DNA of 64,000 nucleotides from positions 124,001 through 188,000 of the forward strand of contig NZ_JACXAB010000004.1 in NCBI RefSeq assembly GCF_014699075.1. The letters run 5' to 3'. The stretch is from Microvirga sp. (GTDB lineage Bacteria > Pseudomonadota > Alphaproteobacteria > Rhizobiales > Beijerinckiaceae). The notes under the pieces were generated by a model. The model was not told where the DNA came from. It made no database searches and worked only from the letters and a program-made list of their open reading frames with translations. The translations under genes were made by a program, and so were the position numbers. Positions within the stretch are counted from its first letter, which is position 1; each line of letters opens with the position of its first letter. Below, one piece after another: positions 3,022 through 41,176 of the stretch.

Positions 3022-4005
3022 ATGTCTCAGAGCGATGGACGTATCTTCCTTGGGAGCGGGAACCCACACGATCAAATCGACGATTTGCCACCGCCGCCCC
3101 CCTGGCGCGATTTCGGGCGCGATGCGCGCGCCCACAAGGGCAAGACGTACCTAGCCGGAAAGCGAGAGGTCGAGCTCGTGAACGCCGCCCTCTACCTCCG
3201 GCGACCGCTCCTTATTACTGGCCGCCCGGGCGTCGGCAAAACGTCGCTAGCCCATGCCGTCGCTTGGGAGCTCAAGCTTGGTGAGGTCCTCACCTGGCCA
3301 ATTAATACCCGCTCAACTCTCCAGCAGGGCCTATACGACTACGATGCAATCGGGCGAGTGCGCGACGCTTCAGTCCAGAGCGGGTTAGATCAAAGGGAAC
3401 GCGACGGCGAGGGTACGATCCTCGACATGGGAAGCTATATCCGTCTCGGCCCGCTAGGCACGGCACTGCTCGGTGGGGAATCTGGTCGACCGCGCGTTGT
3501 CCTCATCGATGAGATTGACAAAGGTGACGTCGACCTGCCGAACGACTTGCTGAATGCATTCGAAGAGGGCGAGTTTGAGATCCGTGAACTTGCGCGGGCC
3601 GGGGCAAACCGTGAGGCGGTGGTCAGCACACATGACCGGGTTAAGGCAAAAGTCGTCGGCGGCAAGGTAAGTTGTAATGTGTTTCCATTGGTATTTCTGA
3701 CCAGCAACGGCGAACGCGAATTTCCTCCAGCCTTTCTGCGGCGGTGCCTTCGGCTGGACATTGATCCACCCGGGGAGGGAGAACTAACAGCCATCGTCCG
3801 AAGCCATCTAAGCGCTGAACCACGGTACGAGGCTGCGGTCACTGGCCTTATTGCCGAGTTCGTTAAGCAACGTGACAAACAATCGAAGATGCTCGCCACT
3901 GATCAACTCCTCAACGCGATTTTTCTAACTGTCCAGGGCATCGATCTGACCGCACGGGAGACGCTGCACGAGGCGGTGATGCGCGCCTTGGACGAAGGTA
4001 ATTGA
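3022..4005 (+). CDS. MoxR-type AAA+ ATPase of the conflict system
   Basis: This 327-residue AAA+ ATPase has Walker A GRPGVGKT (67-74), Walker B VVLIDEID (159-166), a sensor-1-like FLTSNGERE and an arginine-rich FLRRCLRLD segment. The motif LITGRPGVGKTSLAHAVAWEL and the following TRSTLQQGLYDYDAIGR are characteristic of MoxR-like ATPases that accompany VMAP and SAV_2336 proteins. I chose the ATG at 3022, which has GAGGAAGG eight bases upstream; a GTG at 3007 overlapping the preceding stop would add five residues. The stop overlaps the next start (TGATG), so translation is coupled. Known: these ATPases work as NTP-dependent remodellers that license an effector. Inference: it controls the protease and the RES-domain protein encoded on either side. 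Confidence 0.88.
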   Translation: MSQSDGRIFLGSGNPHDQIDDLPPPPPWRDFGRDARAHKGKTYLAGKREVELVNAALYLRRPLLITGRPGVGKTSLAHAVAWELKLGEVLTWPINTRSTLQQGLYDYDAIGRVRDASVQSGLDQRERDGEGTILDMGSYIRLGPLGTALLGGESGRPRVVLIDEIDKGDVDLPNDLLNAFEEGEFEIRELARAGANREAVVSTHDRVKAKVVGGKVSCNVFPLVFLTSNGEREFPPAFLRRCLRLDIDPPGEGELTAIVRSHLSAEPRYEAAVTGLIAEFVKQRDKQSKMLATDQLLNAIFLTVQGIDLTARETLHEAVMRALDEGN

Positions 4006-21500: not shown

Positions 21501-22159
21501 TTGCCGCGGCGGTCGGTAACGGCCTCGCCAAGCTCCTGATCGTTGCGGAAATCGCGGTCGAACGCGAGAACCAGCAGGCCGGGCACGTGTCTCCCCTCGC
21601 TCGTCCGCACGGTGCCGCGAACGCTGCGCGCAATCGTCCGCTCCAGGGCCGCGAGGAGCTTCAACGTTTCCGCATCCGCTACGCCGGTGTCCGGCAGCTT
21701 GCGACTGCGCTGAAAGGCGATGAGTGCCTGCCGTGTTGTGCCGCCGAAAAATGCCTCAGACGCCTCCCGATCACCGAGCGTGAAGCCTAGGCCAAGAAGG
21801 ATCTTTTGAAGATGTGCCACCTCGTCGCCCTGCGAGCCCTCATCGAGGGGACTAGCTTCGCCAATCACACCTTTACTGACGTCGGCTGGTGCGTTCAGGG
21901 CAGCGGCGGTCGCCTCGTCGACATTCCCGGTCTGCGCCAAGCCGCGATCTTTCTGGTAGGCCTTGACCGTTTCAGCGGTGGCCCTGCCGTAGGTCGATGC
22001 GGCGCGCTCCTCGCTCAGGGAGGCGATCAGCGCAACGGCCCTGCGCTTGCTAACCGATGTGATGCCACGATCCTTGAGAAGCGCGAGCAGCGCGTCCTGA
22101 AGCGCGGTCACCGCCTTGCCGGTCTGCTGCGAGGTGAGCGGGAAAACTATCTTTTCCAC
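12572..22159 (-). CDS. TcA-type toxin complex subunit with N-terminal peptidoglycan-binding repeats
   Basis: This 3195-residue protein resembles the pore-forming, receptor-binding A subunit of Tc toxins. Residues ~1-90 and ~105-172 are two peptidoglycan-binding-like repeats (KAYQKDRGLAQTG; LIAFQRSRKLPDTG). A transthyretin-like beta domain follows (GTVRTSEGRHVPGLLVLAFD). The middle shows VRP1/ABC-toxin-type features (CTCEHCRSIYSPAAYLADVWQFL) and a neuraminidase-like region. The C-terminal ~350 residues match the TcB-binding domain (FDLEHPGHYFRRI, SVPCVAGPYGSIPV). Canonical TcdA1 is about 2500 residues, so this is some 700 longer. It starts at GTG 22,157-22,159 with GGAGG seven bases upstream, 57 bases behind the TcB-TcC stop: one leftward operon. 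Known: TcA forms a pentameric injection channel. Target host unknown. Confidence 0.88.
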   Translation of the reverse strand: MEKIVFPLTSQQTGKAVTALQDALLALLKDRGITSVSKRRAVALIASLSEERAASTYGRATAETVKAYQKDRGLAQTGNVDEATAAALNAPADVSKGVIGEASPLDEGSQGDEVAHLQKILLGLGFTLGDREASEAFFGGTTRQALIAFQRSRKLPDTGVADAETLKLLAALERTIARSVRGTVRTSEGRHVPGLLVLAFDRDFRNDQELGEAVTDRRGKYRIRYDAEMMARVEKGSADIGLRIFGKERDAPLFYTPSRDLMMNAPYDAVFDVKITVVDGELPNEFEDIARELRPLIGDAAFEGIAIGENQDEGVFLARESGIEVGKIAHFLVAHRLWAESEIQPEYFYALLREDGLFGISPNRTHVIQAPVGFTTSTRLALYEASLMSSNEAVAAVQRAAAKFLVPRATAKEASESWRISQSFREDAQQYVKNELPHTIFDFVEKLVEDGQEASVLALLRPLDLNNPDVIFAALDQAGAFSTATRPAAAARLKLGALLGFNSGLVREVSESLGVKTPEDIRRLAKLQRAEWTNIITGGDAKVRLGGASISKAMAHRHASIIVRRFEKVYPTTAFAAQLARRNPKALSNRKDIVKFFDTHPALELREHRVVPFLKASGVDPKSIAPNVLRGVEKLQRVFRLTGEYAKTEGLLEAGYGSAADIVDTGKERFKADAIKRAGMSADEAGRVFEQAQNINFATVTVASTLRTLAWPTALEGASAVTFRKHLAQIVAEQPNLQSLGLAADACTCEHCRSIYSPAAYLADVWQFLRNRLVRNTVLGGPSTKTARDVLLARRPDLGEIDLNCDNALVEVPHIDIVCELLEESVSPDVGVGFTGVVVAGAASSGILAAVRAAGFDVGDDALVYGPYDSGRFMLRDRAFTIAIEGPGPNWTLRRLRQTHGTSEERGATPEYVNSAAYALLKNGKTAFGQPFDLFHEETRGFLKAANVDRATLMEALAAGGVPSEMVIAGEILGLSATERDLIFTASVAAQPTIWGVAAPAANSMERLDVFTRKTELEFDGIEKLIAGSYVRKQVDLFIRHLDNSCNLDAKIIVNLDDTILDRMHRVLRLARRTGIATADIDRLAFGWKLGAGDLADRALKTLAIIMRLSGDLGCLPARLITWLDVIPWEGERSQHAQLFETPAITGPLSPDLSVAAIVANEADELASPGSGVRLAAYKSDIATAFGVKAADLDILLARIEEPSLLGANPPLTFRALGALYGRVEVARILGLRASELVGIERLLGFDVLKSAERLREFVSATRAIQEIGVSVADLEYRLARRANDIASYDLPDATAQTVLLTIREGLIAAAATNVSAYNDALAASEQIAALEAALSSQTTVDAASAVFLVDMIRLATPNAAAGTRANTAVDQTLAGLVDGVPVKIAIDAIVASPADLNARKTYLRLILDGLAASGLRTASFDVARSELARLLQLPLETADYMLRGREPQWRGAHLSVGGVSKNLGELLTQGDIANTAIALTFATAPDLFRALRLSVCMAGLIAPFAPEPATVAFLLESAGDLGWLPLDAVRYENSVPPIALPRWLELADGFALIAETPAVALPASPNDTISGTDVLAMTVSGATTKPSLLDALTLVSNWPRTRLDELDSWLGYSVASYKKPAAWRAIGRGVELLNLLGVPIAEAVAYTAELLGDADRKNARRMLRARYGEADWLPALRAIMDPIRSKKRDALMSYVLANNPAVNSKADVYDYLLTDTEWSPKMPSSRIVHAHGTLQLFIERCTAGLEPAATADLDGDPDWSWWDWMRNYRVWEVNRKVFVEAQYYIRPEWRDDKTEPFADMENMLMQNELNEENIEAAFENYLDQLDQIAFLDVLATCYDFKKQDMHVFACTKGGEPRTYFHRVFQRERVWTAWTKIELDITGEHLIAFFRNNRLYLAWATFVEKGNEDQNPPYPAPNTQMPKAERYSEISLAISEYTGKKWLPRRVSDGVVTTPLTTAVFNTKQLFLSVTPDPERFSVDLYLNYEGLRRIGYFLLTGCKGYPEAAQGNSARIMVLPQFKDAWLVGQRFVEANADDDDELAVSLTAASPGFQTLFGRTPGTFRVTYPFQASEIDRLLTLFLNGAIGNLSRDRVFLFFGTLMPYFFEDNQRGYILIPGFYGDLDPHTGTRQTSKTFSNVRQLLIDIVALAAKYLQKLAAASTAADKQVVMNSLAADDEYARILAEIDVYRGTQFSTVVRNFYHPMSCRLREHFFAGGIPELLARSTQREKGSFLFEDPTAGFAPTPFIQKPYPVQEMEFGRDSAYGVYNWELAFHAPHMIASKLIDEERFDEAEAWLRYIFDPRGSSNDPAPKRFWNTKPFYERDTSEYGEQLIDSIMERLASDPGGAIETELADAVLDWRRNPFKPYVVARARTVTFQYAIVHLTARLYIGRGDQYFRRDSLEDLVMASLDYSRAERLLGPRPKIVPPAVEPPPETLNQLDSELDIFGNALRSIENMLPDLSVLPHDGAELPPPPLKLESLYFCIPPSEKLYELWDTLEERQFNLRNSRTIEGVERSLSIFAPPLSVEELIKAAAAGLSTSALLAGLSAPRPPYRFRVMVRHAIELAEVANSFSATLRAALASRDTEALFRLKVEQEGKLLDEQLEALKQEVTATGLAIQSASKVKQLHTDHKTFYENRPYMNAWEISATAAYGVSFALQAVVAIGYAASGGLALVPAFMAGAAGFGGSPTANVQVSGEGFASSARDFVVGAVGASAAALDKAGAMLERQGSYEVRKADWDHSAQSAQTEMDRADLEVRIAEIRHAIAKEQLRVHGVRRQQTTAEETFHKSKFTSREMFEWQAQQLIGVAKQAYRLASAAGAAAERCFNFELGLAESFVRPNKWDDSRRGLLAAENLILDLRKMENAYYSRNKREFELTKSLSLMRLDPLALIELRTSGRCTIQFPEAVFDLEHPGHYFRRIVSLGLSVPCVAGPYGSIPVKVTQISNRVRVETARKVGAAPDVDAYAEDASGDPRFRYNVGSIQTIATSTGQSDAGVFSPDVYDERYFPFEGSGLCSTFVLELPQSLRPFDYGTISDIIFNIRYTARDGGGSFQTMVANSVREMLNTMVLKVGRTGLFMAIDIRRDRPDLWYQLTSSGSAQFTVTADELPYFTAGRAVAFSASRVLARVDGVAGSYSIKSDGTSIVLNPPAEAELGGLLSSSALNLQLDVPVTLETALPNKLKDLIVVVTFRIT

Positions 22160-22216: not shown

Positions 22217-25200
22217 CTACCACCAGTCGAAGTAGCGGCCGACGTGGAAAATGCCGACGCCGATGGCGAGTATCGCCCCGGCGGCTATCAGAACGGGCGC
22301 GGCTGCGACGAGGGCAGGCGCCATCGCCACGCCCGCCGCGCTCGCCATCGCAATCCCGCCGCCCGCTGCAAGCGCCGTCCCGGCGACGACGCCGACTGCG
22401 CCTGCAACGGCGCCGGCCGTGTCGCCACGCTCGTAAGCGCGGTAGCCGCTCACGCCGGAGGTGATTGCGAGCGCCGCGCCGCTGAGCGCGATGCCCAGCG
22501 GCAGGGCCGCGACCCCGCCGACGGTCGCGCCCCCGACCAGCGTGCCTGAGTTCGCGAGCGCGTAAAGTTCGAGACCGCCGCCGGCGACGCCGAGCGCATC
22601 GCCGATGCCCATCGGCACGTCGCCTTCCTTGATGTCGTTGTAGAGCCCGTATCCCGACAGCCCTACGCCGGCTGCGGCGAGCGCACCGCCTGCGGCGCGC
22701 ATGCTGCCTCTGAAGCGAGGTGTGTCGGTGAAGCGGCCGGTCTCCGAGGCGCGTGAGACGCCGCCGGCGGGCACCCCCTGCGGCTCGCCCCGGAGCCGAC
22801 GGTAGCCCTCAAAGCCGTCATTGGTGTTGGTGGGGCCATTCTCCCAGATGTAGTCACGCCAGTGTTCACCAACGCGTCCAGTTAGATCGTACTGCATGTC
22901 GATGCGATGGCCCGCGGCGGACGTGGGCGTTGGACGAGGAGAACGCGCATTGAAATCGGCGAGGGCCCGTTGCTGGGCTGGCAGGGCGCGGCGTACCCGG
23001 GTTGGGTTAGCCGGTCCTGTGTTTCGGCCGACGGTGCGCTGGCGCGTGCCCTCACGCAGCCGCGCGAGCTTCTGGTCGTCGACCGAGTCGGGAACCGTGA
23101 TCGTATTGCCGGCAGGATTGTTGCGAATGACGGTGCCACCGACGGAACTGGCCGTGCTTCCCTCGGGGCCGGAGCTGTTGGAACTCTCGTTGCCTGGGGG
23201 AGCTCTTGGACCGAGAATGCCCAGGGGATCGCTGGCGGGTATCTGATCTGGATCGAACTCGCCGAAATTCCAGTTGCCGCCGGTATAAACAGGAGCCGGA
23301 TTTACCTCTCCCCCGCGGCTCCAGCCGTACCCGAGGTTGGCAACATAGTCCCGCAGCTGCTGGGCGCGGCGCGCGATATCGTCCGCCGATGCGTTCGCCG
23401 GTACATTCGCGATGTTTGGCGGTAGGCCGAAACTCCTTGTTGTATCGTACATGCCGTCCGGATCGACGCGCATCACCGGATTGTTGGCGCAGTAGCGGAA
23501 GAGGTTGGTGCCGCTGGCGAAGCCCGCGGGGTCGGTGTTGATCCAGCGCCCTAGCCAAGTCGCCATGTAGCGCATGCCGAAATACTGGAGGCCAGTTTCG
23601 CTGTCGCGCTCGGTTCCGCTGAAGCGGAAGCGCTTCAAGCTGATGCCGTAGCCGGGTGTCGCCGAGCGGTACGCCGTCGTGCCGAATGGATGATAGGACT
23701 CGTAAGAGACCACATTGCCGCCCGCGTCGGTTTCCAGTGCCGACGAGCCGAGATGGTCCTCATACTGGTAGCGGATTAGCGGAACGCCAAGCGGATTAGC
23801 GGCGTCTTCGTTAAGGTCGTCCTGGGTCTTGGTGTCGGATTGAGCGATGTTGCCGTGCTTGTCGCCGACATGCAGCGTCCACCGCTCGAAGCGGCGTGCA
23901 CCGGTACTGCGTCGGCGACGACGGAAGATCATCACGGGGCCGAGGAAGATCCAGTCGAGGTTGAGGTCGCCCGGCCGCTCGATTACCTTGCGCATGCGCT
24001 GGCCGCCACTGCCATAGACGTAGAAGGCGGTTCCGCCTCCGCCGAGGTCTACCCGCTGCAACATGTCGAGCGTGTTCCAGTCCATCGTCGGCAGATGCGG
24101 CATCGAAGTCATGTTGCCGTAGGCGTCGTATGTATACGTGCCGGAGTACGGGCCGCCGTCCGGGTCGCCGGGCATGCTAGCGGAGGTCAGCCGGTTCGTC
24201 CGGTCGCCGGGTACATCGTCGAATGCGTAGCGATAGCGTCGTGTCCAGCCATTGCCGGCGCCGGGCTGGGCCGGGAATGTATGGCGCAGCTCCGTCAGGT
24301 TGCCGAGTAAGTCGTAGTCGTAGGTTTCTGTATAGGCTCGCACCGCGTTCGCGGCGTTCACATGTGGAAGCTGCGGAATGGCGTCCGTATCAACATGTGT
24401 ACGCACAGCGTTGTTTGGAAGCCCGGCGAGCTCTCGTCCCGTCGCACGGATCAGCTGATAGAGTGCGTCGTATTCATAGCGGTTCCCCGGCGGTACGACC
24501 GCATTGCGGAAGAAGAATGTCGACTGCGCCGCGTCCTCCGCATCGGTGACGTTGCCTACTGGATCGTAGTGATAGGTGACGTTCCGCAGGGCCTGCGTGG
24601 CGGGATCCGTACCAGTCCTGAACGTCACATAGTTGGTCAAGCGGAAGGACTTTGGATCGTAAAGATAACGGACGATCAGATCGTTGCCGTGGTGGGCGGA
24701 CAGACGTCGGCCCTTTGCGTCATAGTCCTGCTCCCGGAGCAGCGTGACCGCCGAGCCTTGTCCCATGATCTTTGCTGACAGCGACTGCAGCTGGTTGGCC
24801 TCGTCGAAGGTGGGCGTCAGCTCAGTGGCATCCGGCAGCGTCACATGCACCGGACGATTAAGCGCGTCGTGGCGCGCCGTTGCGGTGAAGGTCTCGGTGT
24901 CGAGCAACGGCGCGGCAGCCACCTGCACAGCGGCATAGTCCTCTTGCGCTGCCAATGCCGACCAGTCAGGGTCAGCGCGGTAGTCCAGTAAGAGCACTCG
25001 CTCTACCGCAAGCGGGTTCCCCTTGAAGTCGTATCCGGGGATACAGATCATTCCCGCCGGATCGAATATCTGGTGCGGTGCGCCGAGCAGGTTCTGTTGC
25101 GCGGCGAGCGGCGCTCGGTCGCCATAGACCACATAGGTGAGCAGCCGTTCGGCCTGGGCGCCGTCCTTGACCGCCGTGGCGACAGGCCGGTGCAGCGGAT

Positions 25201-28200
25201 CGAAGAGCGTGCGGAACTGCCGGCCATGCTCGTCCCAGGTCTTCACTAGCGCGCCGAGTGCGTCGTGGAAGCTCCAGCGTCGGCCCTTCTCCGCGCTACC
25301 GGCCACGACCGACATGCCGCCGATCGAGGTGACGCTGTGGGACACCTCCCGCCCGAGTTGGTCGAATACCTTGACGGTACGCCCAGTCAGGTCGGCCACC
25401 GAGCGCATCGTCGCGCGCTTGCCGCCACCATAGTCTGTGACCGTGTAGATCGGCCGCCCGGATACGTCGGAATGCACGACGCCCGGCGTGTTGTCATGCT
25501 TGGCGGCGAGCCATGCCGCGCGGCGTTGCGGATTGTTCAGCGGTTCCGGCTCGACAGACGGATTGGGGCTGCCCCGATCGATATACCACTGGCTTTGTTT
25601 GACCGTGTCGTTGCCATCGAAGAGCCGCTGCAGCCACGGCGTGAACTCGATACGGGAGAGGATCCCTTCAGGTGAAACGACCTTCATCAGCCGTCCAGGC
25701 GGGTCGTAGAAACTCACCGCCGTCGTGCCAATCTCGCGCAGGACCTTCTCGTCCTCGTACTCGTGCGTCTTGCTAAAGTACGGCTGGTAACTCTTGACCG
25801 GCGCTCCCTTGTTGTTGCTGATGACCCTGCCGTTTCCGACCCAGCGCGGGTCGGCGTTGACTTCGCTTACCGAGCCGTCGGGCGCCACCGCAAGCGCCTT
25901 GCCGGCGCGTGCCTGCGCCTTGACGAGCGCAACGCCGCCGCCGCCGTTGAAGTAGACGAAGCTCTCCTGCCAGCGCGGGTTGGCGGCGCCGTGCTGTTCG
26001 CGCACGAAGCTGCGGACATAGTTCGGCTTACCATTGTTCATCCACTCGAACAGTGTGTATTCCAGCCGCGTCGTGGGGTCGGAGAGCGTGTCGCCTTCGC
26101 CTGCTCCGGCCTTGCTCATGACAGCGGTCTTGACCACCATACCCAGTTCATCGACCTCGACGGCCGAGCGGTTGCCATTAGGGTCGGTAGTGGAAGTCGC
26201 ACCCAGCGTTCGGTAGTCGTTGACCGCGGAGATGGTGCTCCATGGAGCGCCAACTGTCTCGGTCTTCTGGACCAGAAGCTGGTACGCATCGCGGACGACG
26301 CGTGTCTCCAGTCCGAGCGCATCGCGCGAGCCGGACGGCAGGAAGAAGTGGGAGGATGGGTTGGCCGGGTAGGTGGCGGTGCCGGACGGGATCCACCAGT
26401 CCGATCCGCCATCAAGTTTTACATAGCCTGCCGTAAGGAATTCCGCATCTGTGATCTGGCTTGCATAGTGCGCCGCCGCGTGCGTGGCGGTAATAGCCAA
26501 GCCGTAGCTCTCATGGCCAAGGCCAAGCGAATCCTGCTGGCCGGCGGGCAGGGGCGCCAAGCTATTGCTGGCAAAGAGCGCACGGCTGCTGCCGATGAGC
26601 CGGCGCTGCGGGGTCACGTCGTCGGCGTCGGCCTCGTAGGCGATAGGCGTCGTGCCTGCCACGGCAGGCGCGATCTCCGTGAAGCTGAAGAGCGCACCGC
26701 TTGGCGTGATACCTGTGATCTCGTAGCTGCGCGACTGGTAAGGCACGCGCAGCCTGTAGGCCGTGAGCGGCGCGCCAACCGCGACGTCATTGGTGAAATC
26801 GGTTTCGGAATAGGTGATCCGTGTCTTCGCCTGCTCCGCCCTGACCTCCGGCGGCAGGCTCGCATCAACGGTTCGCCGACCGTAGACGACGGCGCAGCTC
26901 TTTTTGAGGTTGCCGTAATCGTCGAGTTCGAGTCCGAAGGAGTGTGAGATGCGTGGATCGGAAGGATCGCGTTCGAGGATCAAGGATAGGGATTCGTGGC
27001 CGATCGGAAGGTAGACGCCATGACGCTGGCCGCCGCGCGGCTGCACGAGTCGTACCGAATAGCTGTTTTCGGCGATGCTATAGGGATGGGCCGCGGCCAG
27101 CGATCCATCGAAACTGTAAACCTCCTCGCGGAGCGGCAAGCCCTTGAAGGCGCGCAGGCACTCACGCGCTTCATCCTCGGTAAGCCCAGGTGGGAGGGAA
27201 ATGCCGGTGAGGAACGCCTTTTGGTCATAATATTCTCGGTGATAATGATCGAGGATCGCATCGTACTCGGAGTACGCGCCAGTATGGAACCATGTGCGTG
27301 TCGTGACCGGAGGCTGGTTGAGCTCCGGCGCTTGGTCCTGCAGCCCGCCGATCGCGGCGACGCCTAACACGTAGTCCTCGAAGGCTTCTGTGTCCCACTG
27401 CTCGACCATTCCGAAACCGCGGAACTCGCGCTCTGCCTTGTCGAAATAGCCGTGATGGTACGCATAGCGGCGCACTAGGCGGCGCCTGCTCACATGGTCA
27501 ATCGTCTCGACCCTCTCTACGACATGCACGGGGAATGGCAGGCGCGTCGCCCATGGCCTGCCTTCCTGGCGGTCGCTGAGATAGAATTTCGTCGACGGCG
27601 CATAGTCGATCCGGGTTTCGCCGCCGCAATTGTTGAACGAGCGAACCATCAGATGCGGCTTGCGATCGCCCATCAGGTTCACGTAGCGCATCGGCCGCCT
27701 TTCATCCGGCGGCAGCGCGGACGACCACACTAGGCAGGCGGTACCATTGCCCAGCAGATCCGTGACGACGATATCCGTCACATCGCTGAATCCAGGGAAC
27801 ACCTTCAGCACATGTGGCTCGCTCCAGCTGTTCCCGCTCTGGTTGAAATAAAGGCGCACGCCGTCACGATGCAGGTAAACGATGTCCGTCGTCCCGCTGC
27901 CGTCGAGGTCCGCCAACCGGATGCGCGCATGGCTGAACTGGTCATCACGCTCGAAACGAGGCGCGTTATCCATCGTGACCTTTGCGCCGAACTGGCAGTA
28001 GCCGAGATTGGGCCAGTAGCAGACCTCACCGTTGCGGATTCGCACAATGTCGGGAAGGCCGTCGCCGCAAAGGTCGGCGAGGTAGATCGATTGCGTCCCG
28101 TCGGAGAAGACGACGCGCGGACCCCGCTCCTCGTCGCGTGGGAGGCTCACCCGCGCCGCCGGCCCGAAGCCGTTCATGCCGTGGGACGGGTGCCACACCA

Positions 28201-29965
28201 GCGCATCATCCTCGGTGATCAGGACGTCGGCGAAGCCATCTCCGTTGAGATCGAGGAACCGGATGTTCGGGTCGCGCAGATCACGGTTCAGGCGTTGTTC
28301 TATCGGTTCGAAGTCAAGCCATCCGTCTTGGCTGTCATGCCTGTAGACGCCAGCGACGCCCCGCCGTTCGACCAATACATCGGTGCCGCCGTCGCTGCCG
28401 AAGTCGAGCAGTTCCGCGCCGTCCGCGAGCATCACGTTTGGCTTGCCCCGCACCAGCTCCAGCGGAGCGAAGCGCGCCGCTACAGTCTGGGTGCCTGGCC
28501 CGCCCGCGACAGGGAGCGGGCTCAGATTGCGCTTGTAATACCAGCCCCGGCCCTGTTCCGAGAGGAGGCCCGGCAGGCCCTCTCCATGCAGATCGATAAG
28601 CCTGACCCGGCTGCCGTCGAGGCCGGCGGGCAGGTTCTCTAGGCTAGATTGCGCGACGGTCTCAACCTTGTCCTGGACGATAGGCTCGGAGTACTGGAAC
28701 GTTACTGGCGGGAGGGATTTGGAGCTGTATTTCCCCGCCGGCAGTTTTTTAAATCCGGTCTGCGTCGCCGAGCGCAGGAAGCTGTAGGTCGCGTTGCGCG
28801 GATCGGCCGGTAGGGCGTCGGACGAGTAGGAGAAGCTCGTCGATCCAACCAGGCAATCGGCGCCGACGCCGGGCTCGCCGGGAAAGTGGTGGAACATCAG
28901 CGTACGACGGCACAGCCGGCTGGTGCGCACTTCGAACCCAGCGCGGTGGTTCGAGAATGCGTCGGCCCGGTGCGCCCATGGGTATTTCGGCCGCCCGTCG
29001 GGCCCGGTCAGTTCGTTGTCTCGCGGGCGCGGATCGGAAGGGTCATGGTCGCCATAGTCGAACACGAGCTCGAACATCCAACCGGCGCCGTCGATCTGCG
29101 CCTGGCTGATCTGGAGTGGACGTTCGCCGCTGCTATCCAACAAGGGAAAGCGGTTACCGTAGCGAACGCGCTTCGGATAGAGGTTTGCGCCGCGCGCGCC
29201 GCGGTTCCGCTCGTGCGGCAGGTTGGTGGCCACGCCGGTCGCGTCTTCCCGACGATAGCCGTAGATGATCGCATTCCCTCGATCGTCACGCGTCTCCGAA
29301 ATCAGCCAGCTGAATACGCGCTCCGGGCAGCCTGGGGCGCTGATGCGAGAATCGGTGTCCGCGCCGAAAATCGTCAGCAGGTTGTCACGACCAAGCACGC
29401 GCCAGTGCGTGTCGCCGTCGTCTCGGGTCCAGCGTTCGATACGAGCGAACTGCTGCTCGACGCGCGGACGGTAGCGCCTGACAGTGTAAATGCGCCCCGA
29501 GACGGTGTGCTGCGTATCGACTACCGCATAAGAGCCGCCCGATCGAACCCAGTCGCCCGCTGCGTTCTCGGCGAACTCAGGCACCAAGTCCTCAATACCG
29601 GAGAGCATGAACACGTCGGATTCTTCCGCGTCACGGTAGAGCGGCAGCCCCAGGGTAGTTTTCCGGGTGATGGCGGAGAGGCCGAGCGCCCAGCCGAAGC
29701 CAAACGGTCCATTGCCGCCGCCGCTGTCATACGAAATCGAAAGGACTGGCCCGAACCCGCCGCGCCCAGGGCTAGCGGCGATCGGTATGCTGAGGGTCGA
29801 TGTGCCGGTGACGGCGCTGACTGAGAACTTCTCGTCTATGCCGCGGATAGCTCCGCCACCCTTTGGCAAAGCAATCGGCGCGCTCTCGGTTCGCGACAAT
29901 CGATCTCCACGTGCGGACTCCGTGCCCACGAAGACCGCCTGAACGCTTGCAACCGGCTCGTGCAT
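22217..29965 (-). CDS. TcB-TcC fusion: SpvB/RHS toxin cocoon with variable C-terminal toxin
   Basis: This 2582-residue protein combines Tc subunits B and C. Residues ~30-330 are SpvB-like (ALPKGGGAIRGIDEKFSV, GFGPVLSISYDSG, GPFGFGWALGL). FG-GAP/VCBS-type Asp-rich repeats (FLDLNGDGFADVL, LADLDGSGTTDIVYL) and the TcdB mid regions follow (FNNCGGETRIDYAPST). YD/RHS repeats lead to the RHS core (YQYEDHLGSSALE, LQYFGMRYMATWLGRWIN, NNPVMRVDPDGM). DPDG at 2168-2171 marks the end of the conserved shell. Residues 2172-2582 are the cargo: a Pro/Asn-rich linker, a motif GHRIDMQYDLTG (His2353, Asp2356) with WRDYIWENG, then a ~180-residue Gly/Ala-rich hydrophobic tail ending in FDWW. Known: RHS shells enclose and autoproteolytically release the toxin. 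The cargo activity is not recognised. A plausible GGCGGAA site precedes the start. Confidence 0.88.
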   Translation of the reverse strand: MHEPVASVQAVFVGTESARGDRLSRTESAPIALPKGGGAIRGIDEKFSVSAVTGTSTLSIPIAASPGRGGFGPVLSISYDSGGGNGPFGFGWALGLSAITRKTTLGLPLYRDAEESDVFMLSGIEDLVPEFAENAAGDWVRSGGSYAVVDTQHTVSGRIYTVRRYRPRVEQQFARIERWTRDDGDTHWRVLGRDNLLTIFGADTDSRISAPGCPERVFSWLISETRDDRGNAIIYGYRREDATGVATNLPHERNRGARGANLYPKRVRYGNRFPLLDSSGERPLQISQAQIDGAGWMFELVFDYGDHDPSDPRPRDNELTGPDGRPKYPWAHRADAFSNHRAGFEVRTSRLCRRTLMFHHFPGEPGVGADCLVGSTSFSYSSDALPADPRNATYSFLRSATQTGFKKLPAGKYSSKSLPPVTFQYSEPIVQDKVETVAQSSLENLPAGLDGSRVRLIDLHGEGLPGLLSEQGRGWYYKRNLSPLPVAGGPGTQTVAARFAPLELVRGKPNVMLADGAELLDFGSDGGTDVLVERRGVAGVYRHDSQDGWLDFEPIEQRLNRDLRDPNIRFLDLNGDGFADVLITEDDALVWHPSHGMNGFGPAARVSLPRDEERGPRVVFSDGTQSIYLADLCGDGLPDIVRIRNGEVCYWPNLGYCQFGAKVTMDNAPRFERDDQFSHARIRLADLDGSGTTDIVYLHRDGVRLYFNQSGNSWSEPHVLKVFPGFSDVTDIVVTDLLGNGTACLVWSSALPPDERRPMRYVNLMGDRKPHLMVRSFNNCGGETRIDYAPSTKFYLSDRQEGRPWATRLPFPVHVVERVETIDHVSRRRLVRRYAYHHGYFDKAEREFRGFGMVEQWDTEAFEDYVLGVAAIGGLQDQAPELNQPPVTTRTWFHTGAYSEYDAILDHYHREYYDQKAFLTGISLPPGLTEDEARECLRAFKGLPLREEVYSFDGSLAAAHPYSIAENSYSVRLVQPRGGQRHGVYLPIGHESLSLILERDPSDPRISHSFGLELDDYGNLKKSCAVVYGRRTVDASLPPEVRAEQAKTRITYSETDFTNDVAVGAPLTAYRLRVPYQSRSYEITGITPSGALFSFTEIAPAVAGTTPIAYEADADDVTPQRRLIGSSRALFASNSLAPLPAGQQDSLGLGHESYGLAITATHAAAHYASQITDAEFLTAGYVKLDGGSDWWIPSGTATYPANPSSHFFLPSGSRDALGLETRVVRDAYQLLVQKTETVGAPWSTISAVNDYRTLGATSTTDPNGNRSAVEVDELGMVVKTAVMSKAGAGEGDTLSDPTTRLEYTLFEWMNNGKPNYVRSFVREQHGAANPRWQESFVYFNGGGGVALVKAQARAGKALAVAPDGSVSEVNADPRWVGNGRVISNNKGAPVKSYQPYFSKTHEYEDEKVLREIGTTAVSFYDPPGRLMKVVSPEGILSRIEFTPWLQRLFDGNDTVKQSQWYIDRGSPNPSVEPEPLNNPQRRAAWLAAKHDNTPGVVHSDVSGRPIYTVTDYGGGKRATMRSVADLTGRTVKVFDQLGREVSHSVTSIGGMSVVAGSAEKGRRWSFHDALGALVKTWDEHGRQFRTLFDPLHRPVATAVKDGAQAERLLTYVVYGDRAPLAAQQNLLGAPHQIFDPAGMICIPGYDFKGNPLAVERVLLLDYRADPDWSALAAQEDYAAVQVAAAPLLDTETFTATARHDALNRPVHVTLPDATELTPTFDEANQLQSLSAKIMGQGSAVTLLREQDYDAKGRRLSAHHGNDLIVRYLYDPKSFRLTNYVTFRTGTDPATQALRNVTYHYDPVGNVTDAEDAAQSTFFFRNAVVPPGNRYEYDALYQLIRATGRELAGLPNNAVRTHVDTDAIPQLPHVNAANAVRAYTETYDYDLLGNLTELRHTFPAQPGAGNGWTRRYRYAFDDVPGDRTNRLTSASMPGDPDGGPYSGTYTYDAYGNMTSMPHLPTMDWNTLDMLQRVDLGGGGTAFYVYGSGGQRMRKVIERPGDLNLDWIFLGPVMIFRRRRRSTGARRFERWTLHVGDKHGNIAQSDTKTQDDLNEDAANPLGVPLIRYQYEDHLGSSALETDAGGNVVSYESYHPFGTTAYRSATPGYGISLKRFRFSGTERDSETGLQYFGMRYMATWLGRWINTDPAGFASGTNLFRYCANNPVMRVDPDGMYDTTRSFGLPPNIANVPANASADDIARRAQQLRDYVANLGYGWSRGGEVNPAPVYTGGNWNFGEFDPDQIPASDPLGILGPRAPPGNESSNSSGPEGSTASSVGGTVIRNNPAGNTITVPDSVDDQKLARLREGTRQRTVGRNTGPANPTRVRRALPAQQRALADFNARSPRPTPTSAAGHRIDMQYDLTGRVGEHWRDYIWENGPTNTNDGFEGYRRLRGEPQGVPAGGVSRASETGRFTDTPRFRGSMRAAGGALAAAGVGLSGYGLYNDIKEGDVPMGIGDALGVAGGGLELYALANSGTLVGGATVGGVAALPLGIALSGAALAITSGVSGYRAYERGDTAGAVAGAVGVVAGTALAAGGGIAMASAAGVAMAPALVAAAPVLIAAGAILAIGVGIFHVGRYFDWW

Positions 29966-33660: not shown

Positions 33661-34729
33661 TCAATGGGCGAAGATCAGGAGCTGATCGCGGGCGTGTCGG
33701 AACTTGCTCTGAAGGGCGCGGGCGAGGTCGAATAATGTCGGCGTGGCCAGGATGGCATCGAGACTGCGCTCCAGCGCCCGGCGCTTGCGGGCGAGGGTCG
33801 AGGCGGCGGGGGGCCCAATCCCGTCAGTCCGGGCGAAGGCCCGGTGCAGCCACAGCTTGAGACGCGAGGGCAGGACATCCGCGCTCGCCTCATCGACATC
33901 GGCGACGTTGCGGGCAAGATAAGCCAGGCAGGTCTGATGGGCGTCGGCATGGCCCTGTTGCGCGCTGTAGCGGTCGGAGCACCAGACCTCGGGCCGGTGC
34001 CCGTTCATTACACTCCGAACCACGATGGCGCCTTGGGTCGGCGAGGCGTGATGGACCACCGCCTCGGCGCAGCGAAAGACCAGTGAAGGCGTTGCTGCCC
34101 TCGATCCGCACGCCGGTCTCATCGCAGGCGACGACCCGGGCCTGGGGCAACGCCATGATGGCCCTGTCGCGCTCGCCCGCGAAGGTACGCTGCGCCCTGC
34201 GCAGCAGGTTCATCAGGCCACCCTGGCTGAGCGTCAGGTCGAAGAGATCGCCGAATGCGCTTTGCAGCCGTTCGTAGGACAGAGCCTGGAAGGTCTTGAG
34301 ATAGGTAGCCACGGCATGGACGCGTGGTCCGAACGGCGTCCCCTTGGCGGCATCCGGCACAGGAGCGACGGCCCGCGTGCCGCAGGCGGGGCAGTGCACC
34401 GCCAGGCGCCGATGCTGGGTGATGCGGGGTACCACCCGCGGCAGGTCGATCTGCTCGTGGAGGCTGATCGTCTCCCCCGACAGGTCCGCCTTCAGAATAG
34501 CCGAAGAGCCCGAGCACCGGGCAGGACGGTGCTCGACCACCTCATCCGGCGTGGCGCTGATGATCCGGCTGTGGCCTTCATGCCCCGGCTTGGCACCGCC
34601 GAGCCTGGCCTGATCCCGACGCCCCTTGCGACCGGTCGAGGACGGCTTTGAGGACGGGCGCGAGATCTTGTGCGGACGCTGCATCCGCAGCACCACCTCG
34701 ATCAGTTCTTCCTTCGTCAGGCGCTGCAA
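33661..34729 (-). pseudogene. IS66-family transposase remnant, frameshifted and truncated
   Basis: Leftward reading gives IS66 TnpC features: GAKPGHEGHSR, a CPACGTRA zinc-binding-like knuckle, ATYLKTFQALSYERLQ, and VACDETGVRIEGSNAFTG with the first catalytic Asp. Near 34,080 the frame shifts: the expected continuation VFRCAEAVVHHASPTQGA and DAHQTCLAYLARNVA is read in another frame. It then stops at 33,661 after RDQLLIFAH, where an intact protein would continue with the last catalytic region. It is therefore a non-functional relic. It differs from the IS66-like gene at the left edge of the window. Confidence 0.82.
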
Positions 34730-34902: not shown

Positions 34903-37900
34903 GTGACACAGAATAACGATTTCGACATCAAACGTTTTTGGGTGCGGGAGGGTGACCATCCTATAATCCGACACGGATATCTCGATAATCCAGAGAATGA
35001 AGTGGCTGCCTACTTTGGACAGGCTCCTAAAACACTGGATGACCTGTCGCAACTTCCCTGTTTGTTTCTCCTCGGCTTGCCAGGAATGGGAAAGACAGAG
35101 GAGCTGCGAAGGGCGGCTGAAAGAGCAACTGCTCGCAACGAGAACGCTCAGCTTATTGCTCTCGGCCGAATTCGAAGCGCAGAAGAATTAGCATCTGCAA
35201 TTCTCTCGAGCCCCAATTATGCGGCTTGGAGAGGTAACGCTCAGCCCTGGAGCATATTCCTCGATGGCCTAGATGAGGCTCTAGCAAGGGAGAGCCAAAT
35301 CCAAGATAGCCTTTTGGGCGCTCTCAAAGCTCTCCAAACTGAGGTGCCAGATTTACGGAACTTGCGGCTTAGAATTTCATGCCGCTCGGCGGAGTGGCCT
35401 AAGCAGCTAGAGATTCAATTGGGCCAAATTTGGAATGAGGAGACCGCAACTTATTTCCTTGCCCCGTTGAGAGAGGTCGACGTTGAGGAGGCTGCCAGAG
35501 TTCTGCTTCCCCAGAACGTAGACGAATTTCTGCAGCAGATCCGCCGATATGAGGTGCAGGCACTGGCGGCGCGTCCGATCACACTATTAATGCTTCTGAA
35601 CATCTTTGTTCATGACGGTGAGCTCCCGCAGTTCCAAGCCCATTTGTACCGAAAGGGCTTGCTGGCAACGATTGAAGAGGCAAACAAGCTGCGCCGAACC
35701 AGTCTGCAAACTGGACGACTGGATAACCAATCAAAGCTGATGATAGCAGCTCGTATCGCTGCTTCGACTGTGTTCTCTGGCAGTACGCAGGTTTGGACGG
35801 GGCTGCAGGCCGAGATAGCTCCTCCGCGGGCAGTAGTCTTATCAGAGATTACCGGAGGATCTGAAATCGCGCTTGGTTCGCGGTTTCATGTTGGTGAGGC
35901 TGAGATATACGAAGTAATTCTAAGTCACATTTTTACACCAGTTGAAAATGACACGTATATTTGGACTCATCAAACATTCAGCGAGTTTCTCGCGGCTTAT
36001 TATCTAGTTGAGCATGGTTTAACTGCCGAACAAATTGCACGATTCTTCTTTTCGGATCCTGCCGGCCCTGTGCCTCCTCAGCTGCGTGAGGTAGCTGCCT
36101 GGACAGCAACTCTTAGCCCCGACTTTTTTCGTCTGCTGTTAGACAAAGATCCAACGATCTTGCTCCGGAGCGATGTCGCAAGTGCTGGTCCAGCCGACCG
36201 CCTGAGGCTTGTTCAGGAACTTTTAGACAGACTTTGCCGCGGTGAGCTGTTGGACGAGGATACCGAGCATCCTCTTCGCTACGATCGACTTAACCATCCA
36301 GGATTGTCACAACAACTTGGCTCGGTTCTTGAGAATAGGGACAATCCAATCCTCGCACAAAGGATCGCGATACAAATTGCGATCGAAAATGCAGTGGTCG
36401 ATCTGATTCCGCTTCTCGTGAGATTAGCGCTAGACCCAAAAGTAGAGATTTTTATCAGATCCCGCGCAGCCAGGGCCGTAGCTAGAATCGGTGCGCCTGA
36501 GGATGCAGTAGCTCTTCGCCCTATACTGGACCAAGAGCAATCCAACGATATAGAGGATGAACTAAAGGGCGCTGTGCTTGAGGCTTTGTGGCCAACCAGC
36601 ATTAGCTTCAAGGAGCTTTTATCGCATATTACGCCCCGGAAAAAACAAAGCTTCTTCGGAAATTATTGGCGCTTTCTTTTTCAATTCGATCCTGGCGCTT
36701 TGAGTGAAAGGGATATCGGCTCGGTCATTGAGTGGCTTCTGCGGTATTCCACTAACGCTGATGCGATCGAGTACGAACGGGTCGCCCCAAAGCTACTTCT
36801 GGCTGCGTGGCGTTCTGCGGACACGAGCAAATCTATCGGACAGTTTGTGCAAATAATTGCAAAATGTTTCGATAGTCCTTACTCATTTTTTCGCCAAACG
36901 GATCTCAACGATTTCATTCGGGAGTACAGAAATGAAACCAACAAAGAGAAAAGGACGTTTCTAGTTCGGGCAATACTAGATTGTGCAATACGAGGCGATA
37001 CCGAAGTCTCGAGTATCGAACTGATTGCTATGGTCCCCTGGCCCATTGTTTCTCAAGACGATCTGCCTTGGTTGATTGACGAGTTGAAAGCAGGCGATGG
37101 TGCCGTTCAGGGACTCCTTGCGCCGCTCATCGCCAAACTCACGCAAAACGGGGATCTGAATCCATTTGAGTACATCTGGGAAGCTGCAGTTTCATCTAGG
37201 GACCTGTCGTCTGCTCTCCGCAAAGCTCACAGTATCGATCTCGACAGCCCTATCGCAAGGTGGCGGCGAGACGAATATACGTCTGAACAAGAGGCCAAGC
37301 GCTCCGACAAAGAGGTGCCAAAGCTTGAGAGCCTGATCGAGCAGCTGCTGCAGAAGATAGAGACCGGAAAAGCGTTAGACTGGTGGCAGCTCGACTCCTT
37401 ACTATTGCGATGGGAAGGTGATCGCCGGACGGTCCGTGATTATGTAGGACATTTGGGTAGCACCGCATCCTGGCACTCACTTCCTGATCATCAGAAGCTT
37501 CGGACTATCAAGACTGCTCAGCGATTTTTGCAGGAAGCGCTCATCAAGTCCCGGCCCTGGTTCGGGAGTGCAAACGAGATCTTTCGCCCTGCGCAGTCTG
37601 CCTATCGAGCGTTTCGCCTGCTCCGAGCTGAGGCGCCTGACATCTATGCTGAGCTTGAGCCACGAGTATGGAGTAAGTGGATTCCCGCATTGCTCAACTT
37701 CCGGTCAAATGACGGGGGCGAGGAGCACCATATTTGGCAGCAGATTATTCTCGATGCATACCAACACGCGCCAGATCGCGTTATCCTGGCTCTTAAACGC
37801 ATTATTACGTCTGACCAGAGTGACAGTGTCATTCGACGCACTCTCGAAGCGGTCGACGAGTGCTATGACCAGCGTCTTGGTGACCTGTTGTGGAGTCGGA

Positions 37901-39885
37901 TCTCTCTCGACAAGTCGACCGAATCTGAACTCGAGATCGTAAGCTTATTAGTTCGAAAAGGCTACGAGCCAGCCGTTCAAGCTTCGCTCAGTGTTCTTGA
38001 TCAGGAAACTGAAACAACGGAGGCAAGCCAGAAGGCTCGGGTTGGCGGCTTAGCGAATCTTCTAACGTCCGATCCTCAGCGTGTAATCCCGCAACTGCTG
38101 GAACGAAGGGACACGCACTCGGAAACTGTCCGAGCTGTTTGGGCTAGATATGCAAGCCTAGGTTGTGACGATCACGCAGCGTTACTCAATATTGAAGAAA
38201 GCGATCTGGGTCGGGTTTACAAGTATCTGGACGAATCATTTCCAATGCCAGAGCGTGACGAGGAGTCTCTCGTTCATAGTTACACAATTTCTGATGAGAT
38301 CGACGATATCAGAAATGCCATCATCAAGCGGTTGACTGAAGCTGGCACACTAGCTGCCGTCCGAACTCTCGAGCAAATTGCTAGTAATATACCGAAACTT
38401 GGTGGTCTACGGTGGAGTGCACATCTTGCCCGTAGGAACCTTAGCGAGAAGCAGTGGCAGGCTCGCACGCCAGCTGAAATAATACAGATGGTTTCCGCAG
38501 TCGGCGTAAACCCAGGACTGAGGAGCGAGATTCAGACAACTCGTGCCGCTGTCGCGGAGGCTGAAGCACCAATCCTTCAGTCAAGAGGTCAGGACGGTGA
38601 CGCTAACGAGACCGAACTCTCGGTAGATCTTTCAATACAGGTGTCTGACCCGACTAACTTGCCTCCTCTTAAGTTGCTTTTCGTTGGCACAGAGTGGAGA
38701 TCGGGCCACGGCGGGATCTCAACACTCAATCGGGAACTTTGCAATGCTCTTGCCCAGCTTGGGCATCAAGTCTTCTGCTTACTGGTTTCATGTTCCGATG
38801 CCGACATCAAAGATGCGAAGAAGATGGGTGTCACGCTCATTACGGCACCAGACGATCCAATAGGAAGTGATACTGAGCGCTTACTCCTCGTGACGAAGTC
38901 CGCTCTTGGGGATCTTGAGCCTGACGCTGTAGTCGGGCACGACAATAAGACCGGCTTCGCCGGTCGTCATATTGCAAGTCGTGTCTTAGATGAGGTTCCC
39001 TACATTCACTTTCTTCACACACTTCCCGAAGAGATAGAGCCCTTCAAGACCCGAGTAGACCGGGGGGTTTTTGGCGGGGCTGATAGGGCAAAAATGCAGG
39101 ATTGGCTCTGTCAAAGATCCGAGCTAGTCGTCGCTGTGGGGCCTCGTATTGAGCGAGTGGCAGGGATGCGTCTTGCTCTCACTGGTAAAACCGTTGCTCG
39201 TTTTGTTCCAGGATTGAGCACCCGCCTTGTAGATTTCAACCACGATCTTAGCAGGCCGCGCATCAATCAGTGCCTGCTGTTCGGACGCTTGGAAGATTAC
39301 AAGCTGAAAGGTGTTGGCATGGCCTGCGAGATCATCCGCAAGGCCAATGATAGTTGGCGCGGTGCTGCGGCTAACCGCCCATCCTTGATACTACGAGGCC
39401 TGGATCGATCCACTAGAGCTGAGGAAGTCCGGGCGATCGCGGAGTCAGCTGGTATAGAAAGACATGTGACTTACAGACCCTATACGGATAATGCTGATGA
39501 TATTGAGCAAGATATCACTCAGACCTCTGTAGTACTAATGCCGTCAGAGTTCGAGGCATTTGGCTTAGCAGCTCTGGAAGCAATCTCAGCAGGCGTGCCA
39601 GTGATACTTACTGCAACAAGCGGACTTGCCGAATTGCTTGTCGAGTATGAGGGCTTGATTGGGCGATCCGCACTTGAAGCTATCACCGCAGAAGTTGGCG
39701 ATGCTGATGGACCCCAATGTTCGGAATGGGCGGAGCGTGTTTCAATCATCTTCTCAGATTTAAATGCAGCGTTTGCGCGTGCTCATCAAATACGTGAGCG
39801 CTTGAAATCAGTAATGACCTGGGACGCTTCCGCCAGAAAACTGGCGCAGGACATATCCCAAGTAGTCCAAGGTAGCAAAGACTAG
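34903..39885 (+). CDS. STAND/NACHT-type ATPase - HEAT-like repeats - GT4 glycosyltransferase fusion
   Basis: This 1660-residue protein starts with GTG at 34,903. Residues ~45-365 form a STAND/NACHT-like P-loop NTPase: Walker A GLPGMGKT (58-65), Walker B SIFLDGLDEA with Asp121 and Asp124-Glu125, sensor-like LRISCRSAEWP, and the post-NACHT motif WTHQTFSEFLAAYYL. Residues ~470-1230 are helical repeats of HEAT type (SRAARAVARIGAPEDAVALRP). Residues ~1255-1655 are a GT4 glycosyltransferase: LLFVGTEWRSGHGGIST, GRLEDYKLKG and EFEAFGLAALE with the E-x7-E pair Glu1551/Glu1559. No signal peptide or membrane segment is evident. Base composition looks AT-richer than the flanks, suggesting transfer. Known: NACHT/STAND proteins include anti-phage sensors. 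Inference: the GT4 part is the effector, perhaps glycosylating a host target. No partner gene is adjacent. Confidence 0.82.
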   Translation: MTQNNDFDIKRFWVREGDHPIIRHGYLDNPENEVAAYFGQAPKTLDDLSQLPCLFLLGLPGMGKTEELRRAAERATARNENAQLIALGRIRSAEELASAILSSPNYAAWRGNAQPWSIFLDGLDEALARESQIQDSLLGALKALQTEVPDLRNLRLRISCRSAEWPKQLEIQLGQIWNEETATYFLAPLREVDVEEAARVLLPQNVDEFLQQIRRYEVQALAARPITLLMLLNIFVHDGELPQFQAHLYRKGLLATIEEANKLRRTSLQTGRLDNQSKLMIAARIAASTVFSGSTQVWTGLQAEIAPPRAVVLSEITGGSEIALGSRFHVGEAEIYEVILSHIFTPVENDTYIWTHQTFSEFLAAYYLVEHGLTAEQIARFFFSDPAGPVPPQLREVAAWTATLSPDFFRLLLDKDPTILLRSDVASAGPADRLRLVQELLDRLCRGELLDEDTEHPLRYDRLNHPGLSQQLGSVLENRDNPILAQRIAIQIAIENAVVDLIPLLVRLALDPKVEIFIRSRAARAVARIGAPEDAVALRPILDQEQSNDIEDELKGAVLEALWPTSISFKELLSHITPRKKQSFFGNYWRFLFQFDPGALSERDIGSVIEWLLRYSTNADAIEYERVAPKLLLAAWRSADTSKSIGQFVQIIAKCFDSPYSFFRQTDLNDFIREYRNETNKEKRTFLVRAILDCAIRGDTEVSSIELIAMVPWPIVSQDDLPWLIDELKAGDGAVQGLLAPLIAKLTQNGDLNPFEYIWEAAVSSRDLSSALRKAHSIDLDSPIARWRRDEYTSEQEAKRSDKEVPKLESLIEQLLQKIETGKALDWWQLDSLLLRWEGDRRTVRDYVGHLGSTASWHSLPDHQKLRTIKTAQRFLQEALIKSRPWFGSANEIFRPAQSAYRAFRLLRAEAPDIYAELEPRVWSKWIPALLNFRSNDGGEEHHIWQQIILDAYQHAPDRVILALKRIITSDQSDSVIRRTLEAVDECYDQRLGDLLWSRISLDKSTESELEIVSLLVRKGYEPAVQASLSVLDQETETTEASQKARVGGLANLLTSDPQRVIPQLLERRDTHSETVRAVWARYASLGCDDHAALLNIEESDLGRVYKYLDESFPMPERDEESLVHSYTISDEIDDIRNAIIKRLTEAGTLAAVRTLEQIASNIPKLGGLRWSAHLARRNLSEKQWQARTPAEIIQMVSAVGVNPGLRSEIQTTRAAVAEAEAPILQSRGQDGDANETELSVDLSIQVSDPTNLPPLKLLFVGTEWRSGHGGISTLNRELCNALAQLGHQVFCLLVSCSDADIKDAKKMGVTLITAPDDPIGSDTERLLLVTKSALGDLEPDAVVGHDNKTGFAGRHIASRVLDEVPYIHFLHTLPEEIEPFKTRVDRGVFGGADRAKMQDWLCQRSELVVAVGPRIERVAGMRLALTGKTVARFVPGLSTRLVDFNHDLSRPRINQCLLFGRLEDYKLKGVGMACEIIRKANDSWRGAAANRPSLILRGLDRSTRAEEVRAIAESAGIERHVTYRPYTDNADDIEQDITQTSVVLMPSEFEAFGLAALEAISAGVPVILTATSGLAELLVEYEGLIGRSALEAITAEVGDADGPQCSEWAERVSIIFSDLNAAFARAHQIRERLKSVMTWDASARKLAQDISQVVQGSKD

Positions 39886-40337: not shown

Positions 40338-40349
40338 GGTTCTGTTGCA
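40338..40349 (+). repeat. Left inverted repeat of the IS6-family element
   Basis: GGTTCTGTTGCA, perfect inverse of the right end at 41,165-41,176. It abuts an IS3-type OrfA relic. Confidence 0.85.
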
Positions 40350-40391
40350 CGCCGCGAGGTAGGTTGATCGGAAGCCAAATGATGCCTCAAA

Positions 40392-41108
40392 TCAGGCGGC
40401 AGCGCTGAACAGAGCAGCGATGAAGTCGCTCTGGGCCCTCATGTCGTTCGCTGGTACGCTCGCCACTTGACCCTTGCGGACCATTGCCATGATCTCGTAG
40501 CCCGCAATTGTTCGGGAGGCCGTCATGAAGCTCTTGAAGCCCAGCCCAGGCCGAACCAGCCGCTTGATGCGCCGGTGATCCTGCTCGACGATGTTGTTCA
40601 GAAATTTCACCTGGCGGAGTTTGGCAAACCGCCAGAGTTCGCCGGTACGTTTCATAGCCTTCGTGGCAACTGGATAGGCGGCGTTCTTATCGACCGTGAT
40701 GGACCGCGGATTGACCGTATGTGGCTGCCCTAAAGCCTTCCGGAAGAACCGTCGGGCGGCAGCTGCATCCCGCTTGGGCGAGAGCAGAAAGTCAATCGTC
40801 TGGCCGAAAGCATCGACGGCACGGTACAGATAGACCCATTTGCCTTTCACCTGGATGTATGTCTCGTCGACCCTCCAGGATCCATTTGTCATCCGGAGAT
40901 GCAGACGGATGCGCTTGTCCAGCTCGGGTGCATAAGCCTGGATCCAACGAAAGAGGGTCGTGTGATCCACCGTGATGCCACGATCGGCGAGCATGCGCTC
41001 CAGATCGCGGTAGCTGATGGGGAACTGCAGATACCAGCGGACCGCCCACAGAATGATCTCCGCCGTGAATTGTCGACCCTTGAACGGGTTCTTGCTTCCT
41101 TGCTTCAC
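40392..41108 (-). CDS. IS6-family transposase
   Basis: The 238-residue protein has the usual IS6/IS26-type length. It has an N-terminal helix-turn-helix region (ISYRDLERMLADRGITVDHTTLFRWIQ) and a DDE catalytic core: Asp81 in WRVDETYI, Asp140 in ITVDKNAAYP, and Glu175 in NNIVEQDHRRIK, giving the DD(34)E spacing typical of the family. The conserved basic stretch RIKRLVRPGLGFKSF follows. No stop or frameshift interrupts it and both inverted repeats are present, so the element may be active. It probably promoted deletion of the neighbouring genes. Confidence 0.92.
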   Translation of the reverse strand: MKQGSKNPFKGRQFTAEIILWAVRWYLQFPISYRDLERMLADRGITVDHTTLFRWIQAYAPELDKRIRLHLRMTNGSWRVDETYIQVKGKWVYLYRAVDAFGQTIDFLLSPKRDAAAARRFFRKALGQPHTVNPRSITVDKNAAYPVATKAMKRTGELWRFAKLRQVKFLNNIVEQDHRRIKRLVRPGLGFKSFMTASRTIAGYEIMAMVRKGQVASVPANDMRAQSDFIAALFSAAA

Positions 41109-41164
41109 TGCCAGCCCCTCTTTACGCCCTCACTTCATAGCTGGGGTAGGCGAAGCCTCAAAGC

Positions 41165-41176
41165 TGCAACAGAACC
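41165..41176 (-). repeat. Right inverted repeat of the IS6-family element
   Basis: TGCAACAGAACC, perfect inverse of the left end at 40,338-40,349. Coding sequence of a truncated gene resumes directly after it. Confidence 0.85.

Follow-up and report, generated by a model that had tools for sequence, protein, structure and literature searches.

A NACHT-type STAND ATPase of Microvirga sp. with a C-terminal conflict-type glycosyltransferase: a candidate phage-defence switch with a putative sugar-transfer output

What would a bacterium gain from a single protein that carries an NLR-like ATPase at one end and a glycosyltransferase at the other? The question is raised by one gene in a 64,000-nucleotide stretch of Microvirga sp. 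DNA (assembly GCF_014699075.1, contig NZ_JACXAB010000004.1, positions 124,001 to 188,000 of the forward strand), hereafter called the window. We give slightly better than even credence to the explanation that the product is a NACHT-STAND phage-defence switch whose C-terminal GT4 domain acts as a sugar-transfer output, in a slot held by TIR, AlbA_2 or nuclease-like domains in relatives. The gene comprises the following parts, with conservation given for alignment A3, which has 29 rows including the window protein.

34903..39885, + strand: NACHT-STAND/GT4 gene, encoding in a single chain of 1660 amino acids a NACHT-STAND ATPase, a HEAT-like body, a linker and a GT4-conflict glycosyltransferase
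35032..36102, + strand: NACHT-type STAND ATPase module (residues 44-400)
35074..35097, + strand: Walker A, GLPGMGKT (residues 58-65, K64 included)
35251..35277, + strand: Walker B region, ending in DGLDE (residues 117-125, with DGLDE at D121-E125)
35962..36003, + strand: WTHQTFSEFLAAYY (residues 354-367; H356 and Y367 unchanged across the 29 rows)
36103..38496, + strand: HEAT-like alpha-helical body (residues 401-1198)
38497..38676, + strand: variable linker (residues 1199-1258), with the domain-swap junction of relatives near its start
38677..39843, + strand: GT4-conflict glycosyltransferase domain (residues 1259-1647)
39553..39579, + strand: E-x7-E pair of catalytic type (Glu1551 and Glu1559, both unchanged across the 29 rows)

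The open reading frame starts with GTG and is intact throughout, and a search of the organism's own 6.6-Mb genome with the window protein returned the protein itself as the sole match. A sequence-only reading of this DNA had placed a sensor-type ATPase, a repeat region and a GT4 domain in one chain, which was confirmed by the frame, the Walker residues and a match to PF20706. The protein has both motifs required of a STAND P-loop ATPase, Walker A (GMGKT) and Walker B (DGLDE); G63 and K64 of the former were at least 90% conserved in A3, and D121, D124 and E125 of the latter were invariant. Residues 354-367, WTHQTFSEFLAAYY, resemble the winged-helix motif of NACHT proteins. In Pfam, the ATPase of the window protein drew only AAA- and STAND-type rows, all under the cut-off, whereas 12 of the 29 A3 rows matched PF05729 (NACHT) with E no higher than 0.01 (best 1.3e-6). 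Structure prediction covered residues 1-500 and 1197-1660. The predicted fold of the first range, a NACHT fold with helical and winged-helix subdomains, best matched NLRC4, NLRP3 and NOD2. The window protein is called a NACHT protein here because of the PF05729 matches of its relatives, two NCBIfam NACHT antiphage models and this predicted structure; these are also the grounds on which the STAND assignment of the earlier reading stands. The window protein itself drew no Pfam NACHT row, and judged by Pfam only, that assignment would have been close to refutation.

The two NCBIfam models link the protein to antiphage families. Residues 44-1196 aligned with positions 17-1137 of 1318 in antiphage_EruA (NF058535; E 1.4e-54, 185.8 bits), a match that ends before the GT4 domain of the window protein, and antiphage_HyoA (NF058534) gave a partial match to the body (E 3.5e-40, 137.6 bits). 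Papers on EruA and HyoA were sought by name, and none was found in a literature searched mostly without subscription journals; the bacterial EruA that did appear is an E. coli regulator, another protein. The body (residues 401-1198) is the probable sensor. The long HEAT-like repeat region of the earlier reading was upheld in relatives, where Pfam detected HEAT_2 with E no higher than 0.01 in 14 of the 29 A3 rows, and less so in the window protein, whose own HEAT_2 match at residues 471-549 (E 2.6e-4) reached 21.6 of 27.7 bits and thus lay below the cut-off.

The C-terminal domain was identified far more strongly. PF20706 (GT4-conflict) matched residues 1259-1647 over its entire length (profile positions 1-385 of 385) with E 6.2e-102 and 341.9 bits against a cut-off of 26, and the E-x7-E pair pointed out earlier, Glu1551 and Glu1559, is in place. 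Since PF20706 also passes its cut-off on generic GT4 enzymes in control genomes, the score weighs more than the cut-off: in a genome scan, matches were found in 148 of 150 genomes (the organism's own included) and in all 14 controls, and the strongest match in any other genome had E 1.0e-18 compared with 4.2e-103 for the window gene, with nothing close to it in the sample. A scan of genome contigs gave one weak 40-residue match, which was not used.

Next, the C-termini of relatives were compared. Homologue searches, in which only candidates sharing most words were scored, used the whole protein (best 120 of 437 listed), the GT4 region (42) and the first 600 residues of the relative P0139 (best 120 of 2029 listed) as queries; tail counts therefore come from the matches listed and are not frequencies in nature. 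Among these matches, a common body was followed by differing C-termini. When 240 rows were aligned to P0139, 215 reached its residue 1190, and their tails were nuclease-like in 141, GT4 in 59 (window protein included), SLFN_AlbA_2 in three, a short hydrophobic stretch in three (P0125, P0129 and P0145, judged by eye) and single types in five, four being too short to class. The single types included a TIR domain in P0172 (TIR_2, E 1.2e-13), the body of which is 50-73% identical per block to that of P0139. The exchange is clearest between P0139, which ends in AlbA_2, and P0150, which ends in a nuclease-like tail: identity per 100-residue block was 69-92% up to residue 1200 and then fell to 35% and 20%, whereas P0139 and P0149, both with AlbA_2, remained at least 95% identical past residue 1200. 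The swap junction thus lies near residue 1205-1220 of P0139. Within the linker of the window protein, no column was conserved in at least 95% of 60 aligned rows. Since relatives carry other domains after the common body, the C-terminus of the window protein is likely, as far as sequence comparison tells, to be an effector slot.

The common nuclease-like tail is about 200 residues long, with D98 and E120-x-K122 invariant in seven aligned tails and with TDI and EvKG conserved in 53. The invariant D and ExK are read here as a nuclease-like motif. Some proteins with this tail carry PF28130 as a precomputed annotation, and the tail also occurs on two named plasmid genes, of Dolichospermum and Bradyrhizobium. 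Another of the single types, P0239, weakly resembles an alpha/beta-hydrolase between about residue 1187 and its end (E 9e-4, under the cut-off) and finishes in a hydrophobic stretch; this is a possible further type of output.

How might such a protein act? In the proposed switch, the HEAT-like body would bind a phage component or a phage-caused change, the NACHT module would swap ADP for ATP, and the protein would oligomerize. Clustering would then free or activate the GT4 domains, which may transfer a sugar from a nucleotide-sugar, probably a uridine diphosphate (UDP)-sugar, to an essential molecule or protein of the host, stopping the infected cell. The alternative that survives best, which we nevertheless consider unlikely, retains the switch and has GT4 glycosylate a phage component (a virion protein, a replication protein or DNA), so that the phage is neutralized without cell killing. 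TIR and nuclease-like domains usually act on host metabolites or nucleic acids, and their presence in the same slot of relatives argues against a phage target. The conserved catalytic-type residues are consistent with it, and Kaur et al. 2021 (PMC8195603) propose that invader molecules are modified by conflict GT4 domains.

The place of GT4 in the family was taken from a quick tree of 126 bodies, in which a branch of SH-aLRT 100 separated 61 of the 62 GT4 rows, along with four short rows, from the rest. The GT4 protein P0092 fell elsewhere than the main clade, at the end of a long branch; its placement in the quick tree is unsure. Six rows with little past the body were labelled short and were not counted as GT4 losses; four of them (P0071, P0079, P0080 and P0084) were inside the GT4 clade. 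Since GT4 rows are essentially confined to one side of the body tree, the GT4 association is old and stable. Conservation was then compared between close relatives within the GT4 clade, 28 pairs from nine groups chosen from the tree. GT4 was more identical than HEAT2 in 27 of the 28, the exception being P0064/P0068 (0.74 and 0.76), and at least as identical as NACHT in 20. Residues 1-50 aside, the least conserved windows of the body were 1001-1100 and 601-700. Such a pattern fits a sensor that varies and an enzyme under constraint, even if NACHT was more conserved in eight pairs.

Those eight pairs are also what could be said for GT4 as a sensor or glycan-binding module rather than a working enzyme, with the output elsewhere. 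Sensors in NLR-like proteins are usually C-terminal, and GT4 occupies that position here. The idea is nonetheless improbable in our view: no row of A3 departs from the catalytic-type residues, HEAT2 varies more than GT4 in nearly all close pairs, TIR and AlbA_2 occupy the same position in relatives, and in a coral protein GT4-conflict comes ahead of NACHT. This protein, Acropora millepora P0041, combines GT4-conflict (E 6.7e-82) with NACHT (E 5.8e-24) as the window protein does, and its GT4 is 28% identical over the domain to that of the window protein. Its order is reversed, with GT4 at the N-terminus and NACHT/NB-ARC later, and its arrangement is probably independent of that in the window protein. 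The window protein also differs from the animal NLRs NLRC4, NLRP3 and NOD2 and from bacterial Avs4: its ATPase is N-terminal with no effector domain ahead of it, and its probable output is C-terminal and of the glycosyltransferase type.

A GT4 output of this kind is not new as an idea. Kaur et al. 2021 (PMC8195603) described GT4 domains fused, often C-terminally, to AP-ATPase, NACHT and SWACOS STANDs and proposed them as conflict effectors, acting by modification of invader molecules or by blocking interactions; glycosyltransferases are likewise named among conflict effectors in PMC7159879. The window protein resembles the fusions of PMC8195603, as far as they are described there, in having a conflict-type GT4 C-terminal to a NACHT STAND. 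It differs in that its body, which section 15 of that paper leaves undescribed, is tied to an EruA/HyoA-related NACHT-HEAT family and in that exchange of the C-terminus is shown. The link of the body to EruA/HyoA, a swap junction on closely related bodies and a SIR2-HerA neighbour, described below, are the new elements here.

From these comparisons a broader proposal can be framed, to which we assign a little less than even credence: a bacterial NLR chassis, made of an N-terminal NACHT and a HEAT body, would take interchangeable C-terminal effector cassettes at one fixed junction, and the cassette of the deep GT4 clade would be a glycosyltransferase that stops infection through glycosylation of its target, paralleled by the coral GT4-NACHT protein. 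Sensor and effector would then be separable, as related bodies carry differing outputs (AlbA_2 in P0139 and P0149, nuclease-like in P0150 and, more distantly, TIR in P0172), and at least one coral protein holds the same domain pair in reverse order. Should the proposed switch mechanism hold, NLR-like immunity would gain sugar transfer as a means of execution alongside nucleotide depletion, nucleic-acid cutting and membrane damage, and the 2021 prediction of conflict-type GT4 effectors would become directly testable.

Could the protein instead serve the cell itself, as an enzyme of signalling or of envelope polysaccharides that is regulated through its ATPase and has no phage role? Many GT4 domains serve in the glycosylation of envelope components or small molecules, the solved structures nearest to the predicted fold of residues 1197-1660 are MshA and BshA, and no defence gene adjoins the gene in the window. 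On the other side, the NCBIfam equivalog models for such enzymes scored far under their cut-offs (BshA, 41.8 of 273.7 bits; MshA, 35 of 462.5 bits), the body is related to models named for antiphage proteins, and the gene is rare. None of the 384 other genomes in a sample of the class matched at E 1e-20. In a sample of 397 genomes of the order, three others matched at E 1e-30, only over the ATPase and early body (profile position up to 548 of 1664). No match was found in the phage records searched. Matches occurred in 20 plasmid records, and six of these, five from Rhizobium with nearly equal scores and one from Sinorhizobium, had a cover of at least 80%. The homologues thus do not look like core envelope genes, which would have told against the sequence-only reading, and we regard a purely cellular role as very unlikely.

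Defence genes were found near the relative at two of three plasmid loci examined, out of the six with at least 80% cover. On Sinorhizobium medicae pSymA, SIR2 and HerA are the next frames of at least 200 amino acids after the NACHT-GT4 gene, and beyond them lies a TIR/restriction endonuclease gene of Argonaute-associated type. On pTiB21_90, the second gene upstream of the NACHT-GT4 gene encodes an integrase, and LmuB-like and SspF genes are located within 15 kb. As separate observations, the SIR2-HerA pair and the TIR/restriction endonuclease gene (locus L035, 17292-20314 and 22977-24377) form a compact defence cluster, and on the pTi-labelled plasmids the NACHT-GT4 gene forms part of a unit that also holds a Tn3-family transposase, DfrB and a site-specific integrase (locus L033, 12933-23999; the same in L034).

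As to the setting of the gene in the window, the earlier remarks on AT-richer composition and on a position amid insertion sequences held. The G+C content of the gene is 0.514 compared with 0.614 in the rest of the window, and that at third codon positions is 0.497 compared with 0.61-0.84 in eight other window genes. The flanks are as follows.

33890..34729, - strand: IS66-family transposase remnant on the upstream side (DDE_Tnp_IS66, E 2.4e-6)
40338..41176, - strand: IS6-family element on the downstream side, with perfect 12-bp terminal inverted repeats (DDE_Tnp_IS240, E 4.3e-44)

A plasmid of Microvirga ossetica carries an IS66 transposase to which the IS66 remnant is 84.9% identical. Plasmid matches of the insertion sequences pointed to Microvirga, in the one record of one search and in seven of the eight of another, the eighth being a Paracoccaceae plasmid; a 16S gene was not found in the assembly. 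With insertion sequences to either side, the gene might be a silent relic of their activity, the least credible of the explanations and one we hold highly improbable, as the frame is intact over 1660 amino acids and the functional residues are conserved.

Several results weigh against the defence switch that we favour. A Pfam scan of the window protein alone gave no NACHT row at E up to 1. The scores against EruA (185.8 bits, cut-off 1000) and HyoA (137.6 bits, cut-off 1200) fall short of membership, and the window protein is therefore a relative of these families and not a member. PADLOC-DB 2.0.0 at E up to 0.1 offered no good model, only PDC-M37B (E 0.077, 10.1 bits). Judging from the sequences compared, the exchange that involved GT4 itself is old, and the recent swaps seen were all in relatives that lack GT4. 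Among the 28 close pairs, conservation of GT4 falls below that of NACHT in eight and below that of HEAT2 in one. Pfam and solved-structure searches of the common tail gave no support for a nuclease, and its label comes from the motif only. Finally, no annotated defence gene is present in the 25.5 kb shown for pTi932, which has the same integrase unit as pTiB21_90, and no recognised defence gene adjoins the gene in the window, the nearest conflict-type operon being about 27 kb away.

That operon (638-7760, + strand) consists of four genes, encoding Trypco2, a protein with trypsin and VMAP-C, a MoxR-like AAA ATPase and a RES-domain protein with tetratricopeptide repeats; 'MoxR-like' and the designation VMAP-type for the operon are our own reading. 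Between it and the NACHT-GT4 gene, the window holds two intact large frames of Tc toxin type on the - strand: a TcA-type frame (12572-22159) with a TcB-binding domain, ABC_toxin_N and PG_binding_1, and a TcB/C-type frame (22217-29965) with SpvB, TcdB mid and RHS.
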